A stretch of DNA of 64,000 nucleotides from Dyadobacter fermentans DSM 18053 (GTDB lineage: Bacteria; Bacteroidota; Bacteroidia; Cytophagales; Spirosomataceae): the NCBI RefSeq assembly GCF_000023125.1, contig NC_013037.1, forward strand, positions 1,240,001 through 1,304,000, written 5' to 3'. Numbering within the stretch: position 1 is the first letter of the stretch; every line of letters starts with the position of its first letter. The position numbers and the translations under genes are program-made. This document shows positions 4,218 to 23,044 of the stretch, one piece after another. The notes beneath the pieces were generated by a model. The model made no database searches and was not told where the DNA came from. It saw only the letters and a list, made by a program, of their open reading frames with translations.

Positions 4218-5888
4218 TTAAAAAGAAAATGACAATCCGGCAATAAAGTTCAATCCCTGCTGCGGGTAATATTGGTAGCGCTGGTACCGCTTGCCCAATA
4301 CGTTGTTCAGGTTCACAAATGCAGAGAAGTTCCTGGTTAACAGGTAGTCGATTTTAAGATTGAGGTCGGTAATGACCGGCAATTTGGTGACTGCACCGGA
4401 CTGAAAATTTTTCGCTTTCAAGCCTCTCAACATATAAAAATCCGCCGTCACGAAGAGTTTTTTGCTGATCGTAAGCGCATTGAACCAGTTCAAAGTTAGG
4501 TCCGGACGGTGCCAGGGCTCCTCCACCATTTCTACGGCATAGTCGAAGAAATTGGCTTTAAGCGAGGTTTTGAACAGTTCATTGAAATTATAACCGGCCT
4601 GTGCCGAGATCGTTAGCACCTTGGTTTTTCCCGGGTCAAAAATAGCCGAGAAGCGCGACGTGTCCGAAAGCGAGTTGTTGTAAGAATAGAAATTGCGGTA
4701 AGAGGTGTAAGCGACTTTACCTTCGTAGTTGACGCCCGTAGCCGTTTCGCCTTTAACGCCTGCACTGATATCAGATGACTTTTCCGTATTCATTACCAGC
4801 ACATTAGGCCCCAGCCATTGATTTTCTGAAAGCATACTTCTCAACGTGTTTCGAACAATATCGCCGTTCCAGCCTGCGAAAATATGCAAGCCCGAGAATG
4901 GCGTTACGTCGAGGTTCACGGCCGGAAACGCTTTGGTACGGTTAATGTCAAGATGGCTGTCAGTCTCATTCACTGCATTAATCCCCGCCGAAACCGAGAA
5001 CATGTCGGTCACGTACTTGAAAGTAGGTTTAACACGGAACAAATTCCGATTGTAGGTGGACTGGTCGACACGCTGCGAGACGTACGCATCCGCTTCCAGC
5101 ATTGCGAAAAAGCTTTCCGAAATGGGTACAGAGGCCGTCAGATTGGTTCCCCAGTCAATTTCAGAAGCATTATAGCGGTCCTTCAAAGTGTTCAAACCGG
5201 TTTTTACCGAATAATCCACCAGTACCGACGCATCGGTATTCTCGAAGCCCAGGTTAAAGCCAAACTGGTTGATCGTCTGCCGGATCGTGTCGCGATCCAC
5301 GATCACGCCTTCCGGCTGCGGTTTGTAGCCGTAGAAATAGTAGTTCTTCCGATCAAAATTAAATCCTGCATCCACTTTGTATTTCGAACGGATATATTTC
5401 CCGCCGATTTTGAAACTTGTGGCGGCATTGGCCGAATTCTTGCCATCGACCGGCCCGTTGGCTGCCGACAGGTGTTTCAGCTGGGTAGTGAATGCGAGGT
5501 CTTCTTTGGGTCGTCCGCCCACGAACAATTCGCCGAGAAAACGGCCGTAATTACCGCCTCCCGCTTTCACGTAATTGTTCAGGGCATCGGGCTCGTCCTT
5601 CCGGCTTTGCTCGTCCGACGACGCTGCTACGGCTGGCGTAAGTTTGGGCGAAGCGATGTTGATCTCCGGATCGACGATCTGGTAAGAAACCTTCTTTTTG
5701 CCCGTTTCCCCCTTTACGGGCTGTACTTTATCAAAAACCCGGTTGGCGGGAGCGAACTCAATGCTTTTGTCCTTGATAATCTCGTAAGTCTGGCTCTCGA
5801 TCTCCCCCCGCTGTGCCAATGCGAATTGGGAAGAGAACCCGAGCGTCAGCAGCATCAGTGAAGAGCGTAATATCTTGGAATGCGTCAT
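4218..5888 (-). CDS. Outer-membrane beta-barrel protein, TonB-receptor-like
   Basis: The ATG at 5888 opens a clear signal peptide ending in FALAQ; an upstream in-frame start at 5921 would spoil it. The mature protein of about 530 residues is rich in alternating aromatic and polar strands and ends in a strand closing with F-S-F, as in outer-membrane barrels. No plug domain is evident, so it is shorter than true TonB-dependent receptors. The last third (RNFSAFVNLNNVLGKRYQRY) resembles the end of TonB-dependent receptor barrels. It follows the large TPR gene by about 40 bases, which suggests one envelope complex or transport unit. Its substrate cannot be told from sequence. Confidence 0.7.
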   Translation of the reverse strand: MTHSKILRSSLMLLTLGFSSQFALAQRGEIESQTYEIIKDKSIEFAPANRVFDKVQPVKGETGKKKVSYQIVDPEINIASPKLTPAVAASSDEQSRKDEPDALNNYVKAGGGNYGRFLGELFVGGRPKEDLAFTTQLKHLSAANGPVDGKNSANAATSFKIGGKYIRSKYKVDAGFNFDRKNYYFYGYKPQPEGVIVDRDTIRQTINQFGFNLGFENTDASVLVDYSVKTGLNTLKDRYNASEIDWGTNLTASVPISESFFAMLEADAYVSQRVDQSTYNRNLFRVKPTFKYVTDMFSVSAGINAVNETDSHLDINRTKAFPAVNLDVTPFSGLHIFAGWNGDIVRNTLRSMLSENQWLGPNVLVMNTEKSSDISAGVKGETATGVNYEGKVAYTSYRNFYSYNNSLSDTSRFSAIFDPGKTKVLTISAQAGYNFNELFKTSLKANFFDYAVEMVEEPWHRPDLTLNWFNALTISKKLFVTADFYMLRGLKAKNFQSGAVTKLPVITDLNLKIDYLLTRNFSAFVNLNNVLGKRYQRYQYYPQQGLNFIAGLSFSF

Positions 5889-17935: not shown

Positions 17936-17964
17936 AAAGACATCCCTTCCGGATGTCTTTTTTG
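17936..17964 (+). terminator. Terminator after tRNA-Met
   Basis: Arms AAAGACATCC and GGATGTCTTT enclose a 5-base loop and are followed by four further T. It ends the tRNA transcript before the ABC transporter gene. Confidence 0.85.
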
Positions 17965-18057
17965 TTTGCCCTGCATTTTACGCATTCAACGAGAATTAAA
18001 ATCCGCGCGTTTCGGTTTACAGTAATTGGTAACACCACCGAATCACCTCACAACTGT

Positions 18058-19836
18058 ATGAAATTATTGATCCAATACCTGAGCAGGTACAAAGGGCTCA
18101 TTTTCCTTGCCCTCGTGATGGCCGCCATCAACCAGATATTTTCCTTGCTCAATCCCTACATCCTCGGTAATTACCTCATTGACCCCTACGCCAACAAAGC
18201 CGCCGAATTTCGTTCCAAAGACCTGGGCGACGAGTTTTTCAAAGGCGTGCTGCTCGGGCTGCTGATGATCATCGGCGTGGCGATGGTGTCGCGTATTGCC
18301 AAGGCGTTCCAGGATTACCTGGTAAATGTGGTGATTCAGAAATTTGGCGCTGCCCTGTATACGGACGGTCTGCGCCACGCGCTCCGGCTCCCTTTCCAGG
18401 ACTTTGAGGATCAGCGCTCGGGCGAAACGCTTTCCGTGCTCCTGAAAGTCCGCGCCGATTGCGAGAAGTTCATTCTTAATTTCGTTAACGTGCTGTTTTT
18501 CACCTCGGTGGGAATTGTGTTTGTGGTAATCGTCGCATTCCGGCTCAGCCCGATGCTGCCGCTGATTTACCTGGTCGGCGCGGTTATCCTGGCGTTTTTA
18601 ACGAGTGTTTTAAGCAGGAAAATCAAAACGATACAAAAGAATATCGTCAAGGAAACCACTGCACTGGCGGGCTCCACAACTGAATCGCTGCGCAATATCG
18701 AGCTGGTTAAAAGCCTTGGGCTAACGCAGCAGGAAATCGGCCGGTTGAACACCACCACCTACAAAATCCTGCAACTGGAACTCAAAAAGGTAAAAAGCAT
18801 CCGTTCGGTAAGTTTCATTCAAGGGACATTCGTCAATTTTCTACAACAATGCGTGATGTTCGCATTACTGTTTTTCGTGTTCCGGGATAAAATTACCGTG
18901 GGGCAAATGATGATGATGCAATTCTACTCGTTCTTCATTTTCGGGCCATTGCAGGAGCTGGGCAATGTGATACTCTCCTACCGCGAGGCCGAGGCTTCGC
19001 TAAACAACCTGCAAGGGCTTTTGGCCCGTCCGGTGGAACACAAACCGGCTGATCCGGCGAGCATTACCGACATCCGGGAGTTGCAGTTCGATCACGTGAA
19101 GTTCCAGCACCAAACCGCCAAACGTCCCGCTTTAGAAGACATTTCGTTTAATGTAAAGCGTGGCGAAACCATCGCATTCGTAGGACCGTCGGGTTCCGGA
19201 AAAACCACCCTCGTGAAATTGCTCGTGGGCCTTTACCAGCCCAACGACGGCACCGTATTCTATAATGGTATCAATGGCAAAGAAATTGATTTTGACGAAA
19301 TCAGGCATAAAATCGGCTTCGTGACGCAGGATACGCAGCTTTTTTCGGGTACGATCAAAGAAAACCTGCTGTTTGTAAACCCGGAAGCGACCGACGAAAT
19401 GATCAACAATGTGCTGCTCAAAGCGGCCTGCTTCAACCTCCTCGCACGCGCCGAGAACGGCATCGACACGGTAATCGGCGAAGGCGGACTGAAATTATCA
19501 GGCGGCGAACGGCAGCGCCTTTCCATCGCGCGTGCGCTCCTGCGTAATCCGCACCTGATCATCTTCGACGAAGCCACTTCGGCGCTCGATTCCCTCACGG
19601 AAGAGGAAATTTCCAACACGATTCGCGACATCACCGACCAGCGTCAGCACATTACCGTCATGATCGCCCACCGCCTGTCCACCGTCATGTACGCCGACCG
19701 CATCTACGTCCTCGAAAAAGGCCGCGTAGTCGAAACCGGCAACCACCACGCCTTACTGGAAGAAAAAGGTCTCTACTACGCCATGTGGCGCCAGCAGATT
19801 GGCGAAAGGAAGGACGAGACGGTGCTTTCGGCTTAG
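18058..19836 (+). CDS. ABC exporter, fused membrane and ATPase domains
   Basis: The 592-residue protein joins a six-helix membrane domain (about residues 1-320) to an ATPase domain. Walker A GPSGSGKTT is at about 376-384, the signature LSGGERQRLS at about 480, and Walker B LIIFDEATSALD at about 500-511, with the switch histidine in IAHRLST. This is the homodimeric or heterodimeric exporter type (MsbA, multidrug or lipid exporters). The ATG at 18058 gives a normal start; an upstream in-frame start at 17953 lies inside the tRNA terminator. The substrate is unknown, and no accessory membrane-fusion protein is nearby. Confidence 0.9.
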   Translation: MKLLIQYLSRYKGLIFLALVMAAINQIFSLLNPYILGNYLIDPYANKAAEFRSKDLGDEFFKGVLLGLLMIIGVAMVSRIAKAFQDYLVNVVIQKFGAALYTDGLRHALRLPFQDFEDQRSGETLSVLLKVRADCEKFILNFVNVLFFTSVGIVFVVIVAFRLSPMLPLIYLVGAVILAFLTSVLSRKIKTIQKNIVKETTALAGSTTESLRNIELVKSLGLTQQEIGRLNTTTYKILQLELKKVKSIRSVSFIQGTFVNFLQQCVMFALLFFVFRDKITVGQMMMMQFYSFFIFGPLQELGNVILSYREAEASLNNLQGLLARPVEHKPADPASITDIRELQFDHVKFQHQTAKRPALEDISFNVKRGETIAFVGPSGSGKTTLVKLLVGLYQPNDGTVFYNGINGKEIDFDEIRHKIGFVTQDTQLFSGTIKENLLFVNPEATDEMINNVLLKAACFNLLARAENGIDTVIGEGGLKLSGGERQRLSIARALLRNPHLIIFDEATSALDSLTEEEISNTIRDITDQRQHITVMIAHRLSTVMYADRIYVLEKGRVVETGNHHALLEEKGLYYAMWRQQIGERKDETVLSA

Positions 19837-19840
19837 TTTT

Positions 19841-19954
19841 AATGATTGAATGATTGAATGATTGAGTAAAGATTCTCTCATTCGTCATTCCATCATTCAC
19901 ACATTCACACATTCAATCATTCAATCATTCAATCATTCAATCATTCAATCATTC
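19841..19954. repeat. Octamer tandem repeats in inverted arrangement
   Basis: Three copies of AATGATTG (19841-19864) are followed 46 bases later by five and a half copies of ATTCAATC (19911-19954), the reverse complement in another phase, with degenerate CATTCACA units between. The whole can fold into a long hairpin just after the ABC exporter stop. A second locus with the same unit lies at 24283-24358. Confidence 0.9.
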
Positions 19955-19979
19955 TCCTCCCAATCAAGCAAGATTCAGG

Positions 19980-20010
19980 TTTCCCGCCCGCCGCGGGCCT
20001 GGTAATTTTG
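19980..20010 (+). promoter_or_regulatory. Promoter of the oxygenase/Ada-like operon
   Basis: TTTC at 19980-19983 and TAATTTTG at 20003-20010 are 19 bases apart, matching the TTTG/TAnnTTTG pattern at seven or more fixed positions. A start about 7 bases downstream would leave a 20-base leader before the ATG at 20038. Confidence 0.6.
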
Positions 20011-20037: not shown

Positions 20038-20739
20038 ATGATCAATTTGGAAGACCTTGACTGGGCGGATGTACGGGATAACCTGCACCGGCGTGGCTAT
20101 GCGCGGCTGACGGGGGTTTTGAATGCGGAAGAATGCGACGACCTCGTTTCCGCCTACGACGATTCGACGCATTATCGCAAAACGATCGTCATGGAACGTT
20201 ATCGGTTTGGCCTTGGTGAATACAAGTATTTCTCCTACCCGTTACCACCAATTATCCATCGGATTCGCGAGAGTGTGTATCCGCAGCTGGCGCCGGTGGC
20301 TAATCAATGGATGAATGTGCTGACGAAGACGCAGCCCTACCCTGCTCGTTTTCAAGACTTTCAGGAGCTCTGCCGCTCGCATGGGCAAATGCAGCCTACT
20401 GTCCTCATTCTGAAATACGGCCAGGGCGGCCATAATACCCTGCATCAGGATCTTTACGGCGAGTTGTTCTTTCCGATTCAAATGGTGCTGTTTCTCAACG
20501 ACCCGGAGCAGGACTATACCGGCGGAGAGTTCGTAATGACCGAACAAATCCCGCGTGCGCAATCCAAAGCCATTGTTTCGAAACCTCAAAAAGGTGATGC
20601 ACTGCTATTCACGACCAATTTCAGACCGGTAAAAGGAAGCAAAGGCTATTACCGGGTGAATATGAAACACGGCGTAAGCGAGGTGCACAAAGGCCGGCGG
20701 TATACATTAGGCATTATCTTTCACGATGCATTGAGCTAG
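20038..20739 (+). CDS. 2-oxoglutarate/Fe(II) dioxygenase, Oxygenase-NA type
   Basis: This protein matches what I remember of the Oxygenase-NA family, which is assigned to oxidative demethylation of damaged DNA. The iron ligands are visible as HQD (H136, D138) and a distal His (H211) in MKHGVSEV, with Arg 220/221 in RRYTLGIIFH placed to bind 2-oxoglutarate. The stretch YTGGEFVMTEQIPRAQSKA is also family-like. It is not a close AlkB relative. The gene is followed after 3 bases by a free-standing Ada zinc domain and then, convergently, by alkA, which supports a role in alkylation damage repair. The substrate is inferred from context and family only. Confidence 0.85.
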   Translation: MINLEDLDWADVRDNLHRRGYARLTGVLNAEECDDLVSAYDDSTHYRKTIVMERYRFGLGEYKYFSYPLPPIIHRIRESVYPQLAPVANQWMNVLTKTQPYPARFQDFQELCRSHGQMQPTVLILKYGQGGHNTLHQDLYGELFFPIQMVLFLNDPEQDYTGGEFVMTEQIPRAQSKAIVSKPQKGDALLFTTNFRPVKGSKGYYRVNMKHGVSEVHKGRRYTLGIIFHDALS

Positions 20740-20742
20740 CCG

Positions 20743-21006
20743 ATGATCCGACACGACGATATAGGTCCTCAACATTTCGGCACAAGCCGGAAACTGAGCG
20801 TAATGATTAGCAGCCGGCAGATCACCATTGCCGGGAACTGCAAACTGAAAATTTACGGCCAGTTATCATGCGGTTCAGGCAAGCGCATGAAACGTAAAAA
20901 CCGCGTCTTCTTCGAGGATGTGCGCGACGCGCTCGCACACGGTTACCGGCCATGCGGGCATTGCATGCGCCAGGAATATCTGGAATGGAAGCGGCGGCAA
21001 TCCTAA
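20743..21006 (+). CDS. Free-standing Ada-type zinc-binding domain protein
   Basis: The 87 residues correspond to the N-terminal zinc domain of Ada and nothing else: IYGQLSCGSGKRMKRKNRVF, then GYRPCGHC. In Ada four cysteines bind zinc and one of them takes the methyl group from phosphotriesters. Here C43, C71 and C74 align, but the partner expected four residues before C43 is absent; C33 may stand in. There are no helix-turn-helix, AraC or methyltransferase domains. It starts 3 bases after the oxygenase stop, so they form one operon, and its end overlaps the alkA stop by 4 bases on the other strand. Confidence 0.85.
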   Translation: MIRHDDIGPQHFGTSRKLSVMISSRQITIAGNCKLKIYGQLSCGSGKRMKRKNRVFFEDVRDALAHGYRPCGHCMRQEYLEWKRRQS

Positions 21007-21905
21007 CGTTTCATAGCGAGGCTGCGCCATAAATAGAATGTCAGGTAAGTTTCCCAGCCGGGAAATGCATGGAAGAGCGCCTCAATTTTTTCCTTCTCAC
21101 TCCGATCCCCAATGATACCATGCCCAGCGAGCGCATTTAGCAGGCCTACATCGCCGTGCGGAATGCCTTCGGGCATGCGGAACGTTTTCATGAGCACATA
21201 ATTGGCCGTCCAGATACCCACACCCTTGTACGCAACCAGCACTTTTTGCCGCGACGCGAAATCGGGTAATGCGCTGATCACTTCCGCATTCAGTTTTCCA
21301 TCGGCGAATGCTTGTGCAATGCCTACCACGTATTCCGCCTTTTTTTGAGAAAATTGCATGGCACGCAGCTCGTCGATGCCGGCATTGGCCAGCGCCTCGG
21401 GGGTTGGAAAAACCGGGAAGACCTCGCCGTTCCACTCCACGTGCGTGCCGTAGCGTTCCACCATCCGCCGTTTCAGCTTGTACGCGAATGTGAGGTTGAT
21501 TTGCTGACCGATAATGGACCAGCAAATCGCTTCGAACATGTCCGAAATGCCGACCAATCGTAAACCCCGGAAGGCGTCGGTCATGTAAGCGAGGCGGGAA
21601 TCGGCTGCCAAAAGGTCGTAAAACGGCTCGATATCACGGTTCAGGTCGAACCAGTTGGCCACGTAACCGACAACGAGGTCACGCGCTTCGGGGGCTGCGG
21701 CTCCGTACAAAATCTCGGTTTTCAGGAAATTAGCTTCTTCACTCACCCGAAACAGGATATCGCCAAACGACGTCCGGATTGCTTTCAGAACCGCATTGCC
21801 GCGAATGGTGTGCATGCAATCGTCAAAATCGCGGTCGAGAAACCAGTGGCATTCGCGGAAACTGAACAGCGGCGGATTCGGGATAAGAATAGTTTGTTGA
21901 TCCAT
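21003..21905 (-). CDS. alkA: DNA-3-methyladenine glycosylase II (AlkA-like)
   Basis: This monofunctional glycosylase removes alkylated purines from DNA. The N-terminal part (about residues 1-110) matches the AlkA accessory domain. The helix-hairpin-helix region reads VLVAYKGVGIWTANYVLMKTF, followed by the catalytic aspartate in IPHGDVGLLNAL. Length, 300 residues, is normal. The gene is convergent with the oxygenase/Ada-domain operon and shares 4 bases with its end, a compact layout that suggests common purpose. No strong promoter was seen upstream; a TAATTTTC sequence lies too close to the start to serve. Confidence 0.9.
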   Translation of the reverse strand: MDQQTILIPNPPLFSFRECHWFLDRDFDDCMHTIRGNAVLKAIRTSFGDILFRVSEEANFLKTEILYGAAAPEARDLVVGYVANWFDLNRDIEPFYDLLAADSRLAYMTDAFRGLRLVGISDMFEAICWSIIGQQINLTFAYKLKRRMVERYGTHVEWNGEVFPVFPTPEALANAGIDELRAMQFSQKKAEYVVGIAQAFADGKLNAEVISALPDFASRQKVLVAYKGVGIWTANYVLMKTFRMPEGIPHGDVGLLNALAGHGIIGDRSEKEKIEALFHAFPGWETYLTFYLWRSLAMKR

Positions 21906-21980
21906 TTTCGAAAATTACACCGGTCCTGATTATGTTTTGAACCCGTTTCTTGCGGAAATCATGCGAAATGTACATTGCCG

Positions 21981-23000
21981 TCAATGCACGATTTTGAAAA
22001 CAAGCTCGCGCAGCAGCTCGCCTTCGGGCACACTGTTGCCGTCGAGCCCTTTCAGGCGTCCGTCACATTCGCGCAGGTAATGGATCACGTCGGCGACCTT
22101 TCCCATCGGATAATTACGCGCAGCCAGCAGATAATCTTTAACGAAATAAGGATTGACCCCCAGCTCGGCAGCCAGGCCCTTCTCCGACTTATCGCGAGCG
22201 GCATGCGTAAGGAGCAATTTTGAAAAGAACCCGAAAAGAATGATCAACACCGGGGCCAGCGGGTTGTCTTTGGGATTAGAGGCAAAAAATGCGGCTATCT
22301 GGTTCGCTTTCAGCACGTCGCGATGCATGAGCGCTTTCTGGAATTCGAACACATTGTATTCCTTGCTGATGCCGACGAATTTCTCGATCGCCGAGGCGTC
22401 GATGCCCTCATCCACCCGCAGATTTACCATAATTTTACGGATCTCGTTCGAAAGGCGTTTCAAGTCATTTCCAATGTTGTCCACCAGCATTTGCACCGCT
22501 TTCGGACTGATTTTTACACCTTCATGCTGACAAAAGGAAGCCACCCAGTCGGGTAACTTGTTGTCATACATCTTCTTGGACTGCACCACCACGCCGTTCG
22601 CATTGCAGGCTTTCAGGTACGACTTGCGCTCGTCCGCATTGGCATGATAGCAAAAAACCAGCACGGTGCTCGGCACCGGGTTCAATGCATAATCTTCCAG
22701 GCGCTGCTGTTGTTCCTTCTGCTCAATGCCATTGAGCCGGTGCGCTTCTTTCACGAGCACGAGCTGCCGCTCTGCCATGAACGGAAAACGGCGCGCGTAG
22801 CTCAGCACACCGGCCATATCCGTGTCCTTCCCGTAAAGCACAAATTGGTTAAAACCGCGCTCCGATTCCGGAACGACCTTGTTTTCAAGCTCTTCCGCAA
22901 TCGCATCAATGTAATAGGGCTCGTCGCCATGCAGAAAATAGAGCGGCCGGAACTTCTTGCTTCTCAGCTCTTTGAGAATGATATCGGGTGTTTGTGCCAT
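21981..23000 (-). CDS. holA: DNA polymerase III delta subunit (clamp loader)
   Basis: The delta subunit opens the sliding clamp as part of the clamp loader. The N-terminus has the family pattern LKELRSKKFRPLYFLHGDEPYYIDAIAEEL, followed by an AAA-like fold lacking the P-loop, and the C-terminal helical domain with PYFVKDYLLAARNY. The ATG at 23000 is chosen; an in-frame start at 23039 would lie upstream of the promoter-like element at 23037-23044. Length, 339 residues, is usual. Confidence 0.9.
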   Translation of the reverse strand: MAQTPDIILKELRSKKFRPLYFLHGDEPYYIDAIAEELENKVVPESERGFNQFVLYGKDTDMAGVLSYARRFPFMAERQLVLVKEAHRLNGIEQKEQQQRLEDYALNPVPSTVLVFCYHANADERKSYLKACNANGVVVQSKKMYDNKLPDWVASFCQHEGVKISPKAVQMLVDNIGNDLKRLSNEIRKIMVNLRVDEGIDASAIEKFVGISKEYNVFEFQKALMHRDVLKANQIAAFFASNPKDNPLAPVLIILFGFFSKLLLTHAARDKSEKGLAAELGVNPYFVKDYLLAARNYPMGKVADVIHYLRECDGRLKGLDGNSVPEGELLRELVFKIVH

Positions 23001-23036
23001 TAGTTTGCAGATTGGACCGGTCTGTAATCCGGACAT

Positions 23037-23044
23037 CAAATTTA
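23037..23044 (-). promoter_or_regulatory. Promoter -7 element for holA
   Basis: The minus strand reads TAAATTTG, an exact match to TAnnTTTG, 36 bases before the holA ATG. The -33 box is not recognisable. Confidence 0.5.

Follow-up and report, generated by a model that had tools for sequence, protein, structure and literature searches.

The subject of this report is a compact group of three genes in a 64,000-nucleotide stretch of the Dyadobacter fermentans DSM 18053 genome (NC_013037.1, positions 1,240,001 to 1,304,000), referred to below as the window. On the plus strand, an open reading frame (ORF) at 20038..20739 with a profile match to the Oxygenase-NA family (PF09859) encodes a putative 2-oxoglutarate (2OG)-Fe(II) dioxygenase of 233 residues. 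It is followed after three bases (20740-20742) by an ORF, also profile-matched (20743..21006, plus strand), for an 87-residue protein resembling the N-terminal domain of Ada (N-Ada), in which Gly39 stands at the place of Ada Cys38 and cysteines C43, C71 and C74 are retained. A 300-residue AlkA-like DNA glycosylase, assigned by ORF, profile search and matches in the Protein Data Bank (PDB), is encoded on the minus strand at 21003..21905, overlapping the small gene tail to tail by 4 bases. This layout had been predicted from the letters of the DNA and is exact to the base, and the predicted Oxygenase-NA and Ada-type zinc families both score above their Pfam cut-offs. Pattern matching places a box of the type bound by Cada2, a regulator of the alkylation response in Caulobacter, upstream of the oxygenase gene (GCAAGATTCAGGTT, 19968..19981, plus strand) and of the glycosylase gene (GCAAGAAACGGGTT, 21940..21953, minus strand). 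The genes are best read as belonging to a Cada2-type adaptive regulon from whose regulator gene they have become detached, in a variant with an acceptor-less Ada domain. We put at about 0.6 the probability that the window holds two promoters of such a response and that the small protein is a locked-on, DNA-binding helper.

The published Cada2 site consists of GCAA, a 3-bp AT-rich spacer and CGG, according to Kamat et al. (2024; PMC10957082), on which all comparisons with Caulobacter made here draw. The related box GCAAG-WWW-CRG-RTT was noticed by eye upstream of many regulator genes, and the window oxygenase and alkA promoters carry it; the set in which it was first spotted included these two promoters, and their matches are not an independent test. 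The alkA box of the window (GCAAG-AAA-CGGG) fits the published layout. Exact copies of GCAAGWWWCRGGTT number four in the 6.97-Mb genome, standing before the regulator gene (616027), before the oxygenase gene and before alkA, with one inside a coding ORF, while the reversed pattern has no copies in that genome. Across 48 genomes of the genus, the box pattern occurs 164 times against 22 for the reversed control. A relaxed form occurs 113 times in 120 loci (1,451,185 bp), as compared with 1 to 3 times in three Markov simulations, and in 97 of these cases a gene of the families considered here follows. It stands before 61 of the 79 regulator genes in this set, before 28 of the 50 oxygenase genes that lack a regulator upstream, and before 4 of the 17 alkA genes with high scores. 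In Dyadobacter, the exact box stands before the oxygenase gene in 28 of 30 loci, window included.

The position of the box relative to the promoter is also conserved. A TTTG belonging to what we take to be the Bacteroidota -7 element lies at one fixed distance for 91 of 104 distinct boxes in the 120 loci, and in 26 further loci of the genus all 24 oxygenase boxes show the same spacing. In the window, the presumed -7-type promoter element is TAATTTTG (20003..20010, plus strand), 21 bases past the oxygenase box. The TTTG spacing and the genus loci (L281-L306) come closer to an independent test of the box. Judged by these promoters, the oxygenase/small-gene operon and alkA are very probably co-regulated.

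A candidate for the regulator expected from such a box is present elsewhere in the genome. It combines an AraC-type helix-turn-helix (HTH) with a methyltransferase, both confirmed by Pfam, starts at C1:616092 with the box in front, and contains the motifs HFQR and PCHR. The same genome also holds a classical AlkB gene (Pfam match) at C1:1135646. Because a boxed regulator and a classical AlkB are both available, the module adds to the regulon rather than replacing it. The original prediction had described a repair unit standing in for the Ada/AlkB/AlkA regulon, in which the zinc protein would be a sensor or an accessory factor, and had noted that no Ada regulator is present. The last point is correct for the locus, whose ORFs contain no regulator gene, and does not extend to the genome; with AlkB, a regulator carrying the same box and a small protein devoid of the acceptor cysteine to account for, a self-standing replacement unit with this protein as its sensor is very improbable. 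In some Flavobacterium, Lacihabitans and Aquimarina, the interval between regulator and oxygenase genes contains a gene for a short-chain dehydrogenase or an alpha/beta hydrolase, preceded by a separate Cada2-type box (L140 5213-5992 and L183 5230-5994, by Pfam; L132 4865-5689, L165 5244-5876 and L210, box at 5000, by eye); the products perhaps destroy the alkylating agent.

The pairing of oxygenase and small gene is real and conserved. Among 395 genomes drawn evenly from the phylum, 23 had PF09859 (four seen before, the window's own among those), and within ~1.5 kb of the oxygenase gene these loci, window included, carried the small gene in 22 cases, a Cada2-like regulator in 17, AlkB in 13 and an AlkA-like gene in 3. 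Throughout, locus annotation relied on profiles derived from matches in the annotated loci themselves. In the order Cytophagales, PF09859 was found in 12 of 148 genomes, and all 11 full-length genes adjoin the small gene; the twelfth match (L012/L212), an oxygenase fragment without the small gene, was dropped. In the family, 26 of 81 genomes have the oxygenase, 21 of them with an adjoining small gene. The best 80 of at least 588 named loci, a selection biased to near relatives, showed the small gene (65), a Cada2-like regulator (50), AlkB (48) and an AlkA-like gene (11) within 1.5 kb. In Dyadobacter, 40 of 48 genomes have PF09859, and loci examined from 30 of these contained the small gene in 26 cases and alkA likewise in 26. 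Chance adjacency of the pair is ruled out by the 11 of 11 and 22 of 23 co-occurrences. Most often the genes run regulator, oxygenase, small protein, AlkB. Of the three families proposed to form a unit, the oxygenase and the small protein occur together, and alkA is more loosely attached across the phylum, though common in Dyadobacter. The predicted alkylation-repair module is supported by the ties of the pair to adaptive-response operons across Bacteroidota and by the regulator's box at both window promoters.

The association of the oxygenase with repair genes extends to plasmids, for which 6 of 88 records with a match were opened. On those of Paracoccus, Azospirillum, Acetobacter, Thalassospira and Pseudosulfitobacter, the oxygenase gene adjoins ada or lies one gene off. 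A Staphylococcus saprophyticus plasmid (NZ_CP022057.1, 12241-20915; L245) carries genes for an oxygenase, a DNA glycosylase, an Ada-domain protein, a methyltransferase and an alpha/beta hydrolase, with a recombinase gene and a restriction gene close by. A record labelled as an archaeal metagenome-assembled genome (Candidatus Nitrosopolaris; L145) also contains an oxygenase/AlkB locus that resembles those of Bacteroidota and in which the small gene is matched weakly; the contig is probably a contaminant.

The window oxygenase matches PF09859 over the whole domain (positions 1-172 of 172) at 265.7 bits, against a cut-off of 26.2, and its closest relatives among the named matches listed are from Dyadobacter (80-82% identity). 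Residues H136-x-D138, H211 and R221 are invariant across 42 aligned sequences; we take H136, D138 and H211 to be the 2OG-Fe(II) ligands and R221 the 2OG-binding arginine. The family has reportedly been covered in a prediction paper by Iyer and colleagues, and its Pfam description has it acting on damaged DNA. Experimental work on any Oxygenase-NA, PF09859 or DUF2086 member was not found in the open-licence literature, searched at listing level only. The AlphaFold2 model (mean confidence score, pLDDT, 88.3) is prolyl-4-hydroxylase-like, and a structure search returned prolyl-4-hydroxylases as the nearest solved folds; the sequence itself had no match to a solved structure at E up to 1. No AlkB entry is among the 50 structure matches listed for the model, an absence that carries no evidential weight. 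Because the nearest folds are prolyl-4-hydroxylases, oxidative demethylation of DNA, which had been assigned to this family, is best regarded as a putative activity, and we infer only that it may act on alkylated DNA. An in-frame stop interrupts the oxygenase gene in two records from Dyadobacter (L129 5827-6690; G253:C8), which may represent a single species; this fits ongoing loss.

The fold invites another reading, in which the oxygenase is a prolyl-type protein hydroxylase that is co-regulated with the repair genes and modifies the regulator, a translation factor or a repair enzyme instead of DNA. This is unlikely, though to be taken seriously. The contexts of the oxygenase gene are mostly those of alkylation repair, in three phyla, and some genomes that have it lack a PF13532 match (G127, G010, G029); a fold in common does not demonstrate a function.

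The small protein scores 35.7 bits against PF02805 (Ada_Zn_binding; cut-off 23), and its model (pLDDT 91.4) matches the fold of N-Ada and nothing else convincingly. Its Gly39 aligns with the methyl-accepting Cys38 of Ada (1adn). From 197 matches, 120 were listed and 96 of these were aligned together with the window protein: the acceptor column is Gly in all 97, window included (94 of 95 in the locus set), and the other three cysteines are likewise kept in 97 of 97. By contrast, 14 of 17 loci of the order with strong PF02805 matches, mostly full-length Ada, show CxxxC...PCxxC, the other three not having been inspected. His4 (91 of 97) and His73 (96 of 97) are conserved and are candidates for the fourth zinc ligand. 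A spare cysteine, C33, is unlikely as a substitute methyl acceptor, its column being Cys in only 11 of 97. Because the acceptor is Gly throughout the alignment, the sequences make the proposed role as a damage sensor unlikely. Kamat et al. (2024) state that Cys38 to Gly renders E. coli Ada constitutively active, and by analogy the small protein may be a sensor domain fixed in its active state. Proteins of this kind also occur in records named Acinetobacter (P0047, P0083), suggestive of transfer beyond Bacteroidota.

What such a domain would act upon can be considered from its neighbours. The small gene is mostly flanked by a dioxygenase gene on either side, and in a single genome (L322, reverse complement 2088-2966) the small protein and AlkB share one continuous reading frame, which could be a true fusion or the result of a single indel. 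This position and this continuity favour a role in helping the enzymes. The main rival is a role as co-regulator, with the small protein as the missing N-domain of a split Ada, aiding the Cada2-type regulator at promoters and not the dioxygenases. PF02805 was not found in either of the two Cada2-type regulators scanned, the window genome's included, and the small gene accompanies the regulator even where the oxygenase is lacking, in regulator, small protein, AlkB loci (G004, G055, G051, G097). In another genome (G019; L238 5793-6153), it has its own box and points away from a neighbouring alkA-like gene; neither an oxygenase nor AlkB was found in that 12-kb stretch. Gly at the Cys38 position, which yields an active N-Ada (Kamat et al., 2024), also speaks for this role. 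Set against the co-regulator, however, are the continuity with AlkB, which points to an enzyme partner, the absence of any AAT element seen by eye beside the boxes, and the report that the Caulobacter A-box protein Cada1 is dispensable for induction (Kamat et al., 2024). On balance, a split Ada seems not likely, and assistance to the enzymes is preferred.

The glycosylase shares with AlkA (DNA-3-methyladenine glycosylase II) the HhH-GPD domain (PF00730; 52.6 bits, cut-off 26.2), and the PDB entries that match it best are 3-methyladenine glycosylases (2jhj, 1.5e-22; 1diz, 8.7e-16). It differs from that enzyme in scoring 75.5 of the 229 bits set by the NCBIfam equivalog PRK10308 (E. coli-type AlkA), and in an N-terminal part that passes OGG_N and misses AlkA_N. 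AlkA-like is therefore a safer name than the AlkA first given, which held for domain and PDB matches and not for the E. coli-type equivalog. The module lies between an ABC transporter gene (17953-19836) and holA, encoding the DNA polymerase III delta subunit (21981-23039, minus strand), both identified by profile search. Runs of short repeats of the ATTGAATG / CATTCAAT type were seen by eye at 19842-19955, between the ABC gene and the oxygenase box. Eight Dyadobacter genomes lack PF09859; three of these keep the order ABC, alkA, holA, and five have ABC next to holA. The gene alkA can therefore occupy this site in the absence of the other two, and parts of the module are gained and lost. On another reading, alkA would be a bystander, an old neighbour of holA beside which the pair was inserted. 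Where alkA adjoins the oxygenase in Dyadobacter, however, 21 of 26 loci, the window's among them, have an alkA box (at most one mismatch, with several Dyadobacter boxes having one), and for each of the 21 none of 500 shuffles did as well; of the loci without an adjoining oxygenase, 0 of 3 have it. Though the numbers are small, they weaken the case for a bystander, which is improbable.

As described by Kamat et al. (2024), the Caulobacter response resembles the one proposed here in its regulator, an AraC-type HTH joined to an O6-methylguanine methyltransferase without an A-box domain, in the layout of the box and its presence before the regulator's own gene, and in a dioxygenase gene that shares an operon with an Ada A-box-domain protein. 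In the system considered here, by contrast, the box reads GCAAG-WWW-CRGGTT, the two window genes lie apart from that for the regulator, AlkB comes next in the operon of many relatives, and the A-box-like protein is free-standing; its Gly at the acceptor position may be a further difference from Cada1.

The classical point of reference is the E. coli Ada regulon, comprising ada, alkB, alkA and aidB. The set of repair activities is alike, and the small protein folds like N-Ada; it lacks the acceptor Cys38, however, and the regulator is of Cada2 type, with Oxygenase-NA as an extra enzyme.

Taken together, gene order, common box, conserved -7 spacing and the presence of regulator and AlkB elsewhere in the genome are established as far as sequence can do so, and inducible alkylation repair, with the small protein as a permanently active DNA-binding accessory, is the most likely function. 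In the proposed mechanism, the PCHR cysteine of the regulator would take up methyl damage, as reported for Caulobacter Cada2, and the methylated regulator would bind GCAAGWWWCRGGTT and switch on both the oxygenase/small-protein operon and alkA. The oxygenase would oxidatively strip alkyl groups from bases that AlkA leaves, and AlkA would excise others. With Gly at the Cys38 position, the small protein would take up no methyl group there; by analogy with the Cys-to-Gly Ada mutant, it may be locked in a DNA-binding state in which it helps the dioxygenases (or the regulator) on DNA.

Several observations weigh against this reading. Within the 120 loci, the relaxed box is missing from 18 of 79 Cada2-like genes, from 22 of the 50 oxygenase genes that have no regulator ahead of them and from 13 of the 17 alkA genes with high scores, and no exact box occurs anywhere in the 10.5-kb locus of the genome's alkB (L241). 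The window oxygenase box (GCAAG-ATT-CAGG) has CAG where the published X-box has CGG, and the genome's regulator has RVYD where Cada2 has RLHD. Cases with no small gene nearby make up 5 of 26 family loci (one at a contig end), 15 of the 80 named loci and 4 of the 30 from Dyadobacter. The fold neighbours of the oxygenase are mostly protein hydroxylases. The Caulobacter vibrioides control genome has a PF09859 match, which makes ccna_00745 no more than a putative Oxygenase-NA.

The pathway is ordinary; the small protein and an oxygenase whose substrate is putatively DNA are what is unusual. In a bolder version, possible though doubtful, Bacteroidota would have domesticated the Ada sensor domain, with Gly for Cys38, into a free-standing zinc module permanently in the 'methylated' state that binds DNA. 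It would serve both AlkB and Oxygenase-NA as a dedicated DNA clamp, and Oxygenase-NA would represent a further line of DNA dealkylases, prolyl-hydroxylase-like and separate from AlkB. The little-studied Oxygenase-NA family and the small zinc protein gain from this work a concrete pathway, a promoter site and a prediction, and by means of the box the alkylation regulon can be predicted from sequence in many Bacteroidota. The small protein further suggests that the Cys-to-Gly change found to leave Ada locked on has become fixed in nature, and that a former sensor now serves as a tool.
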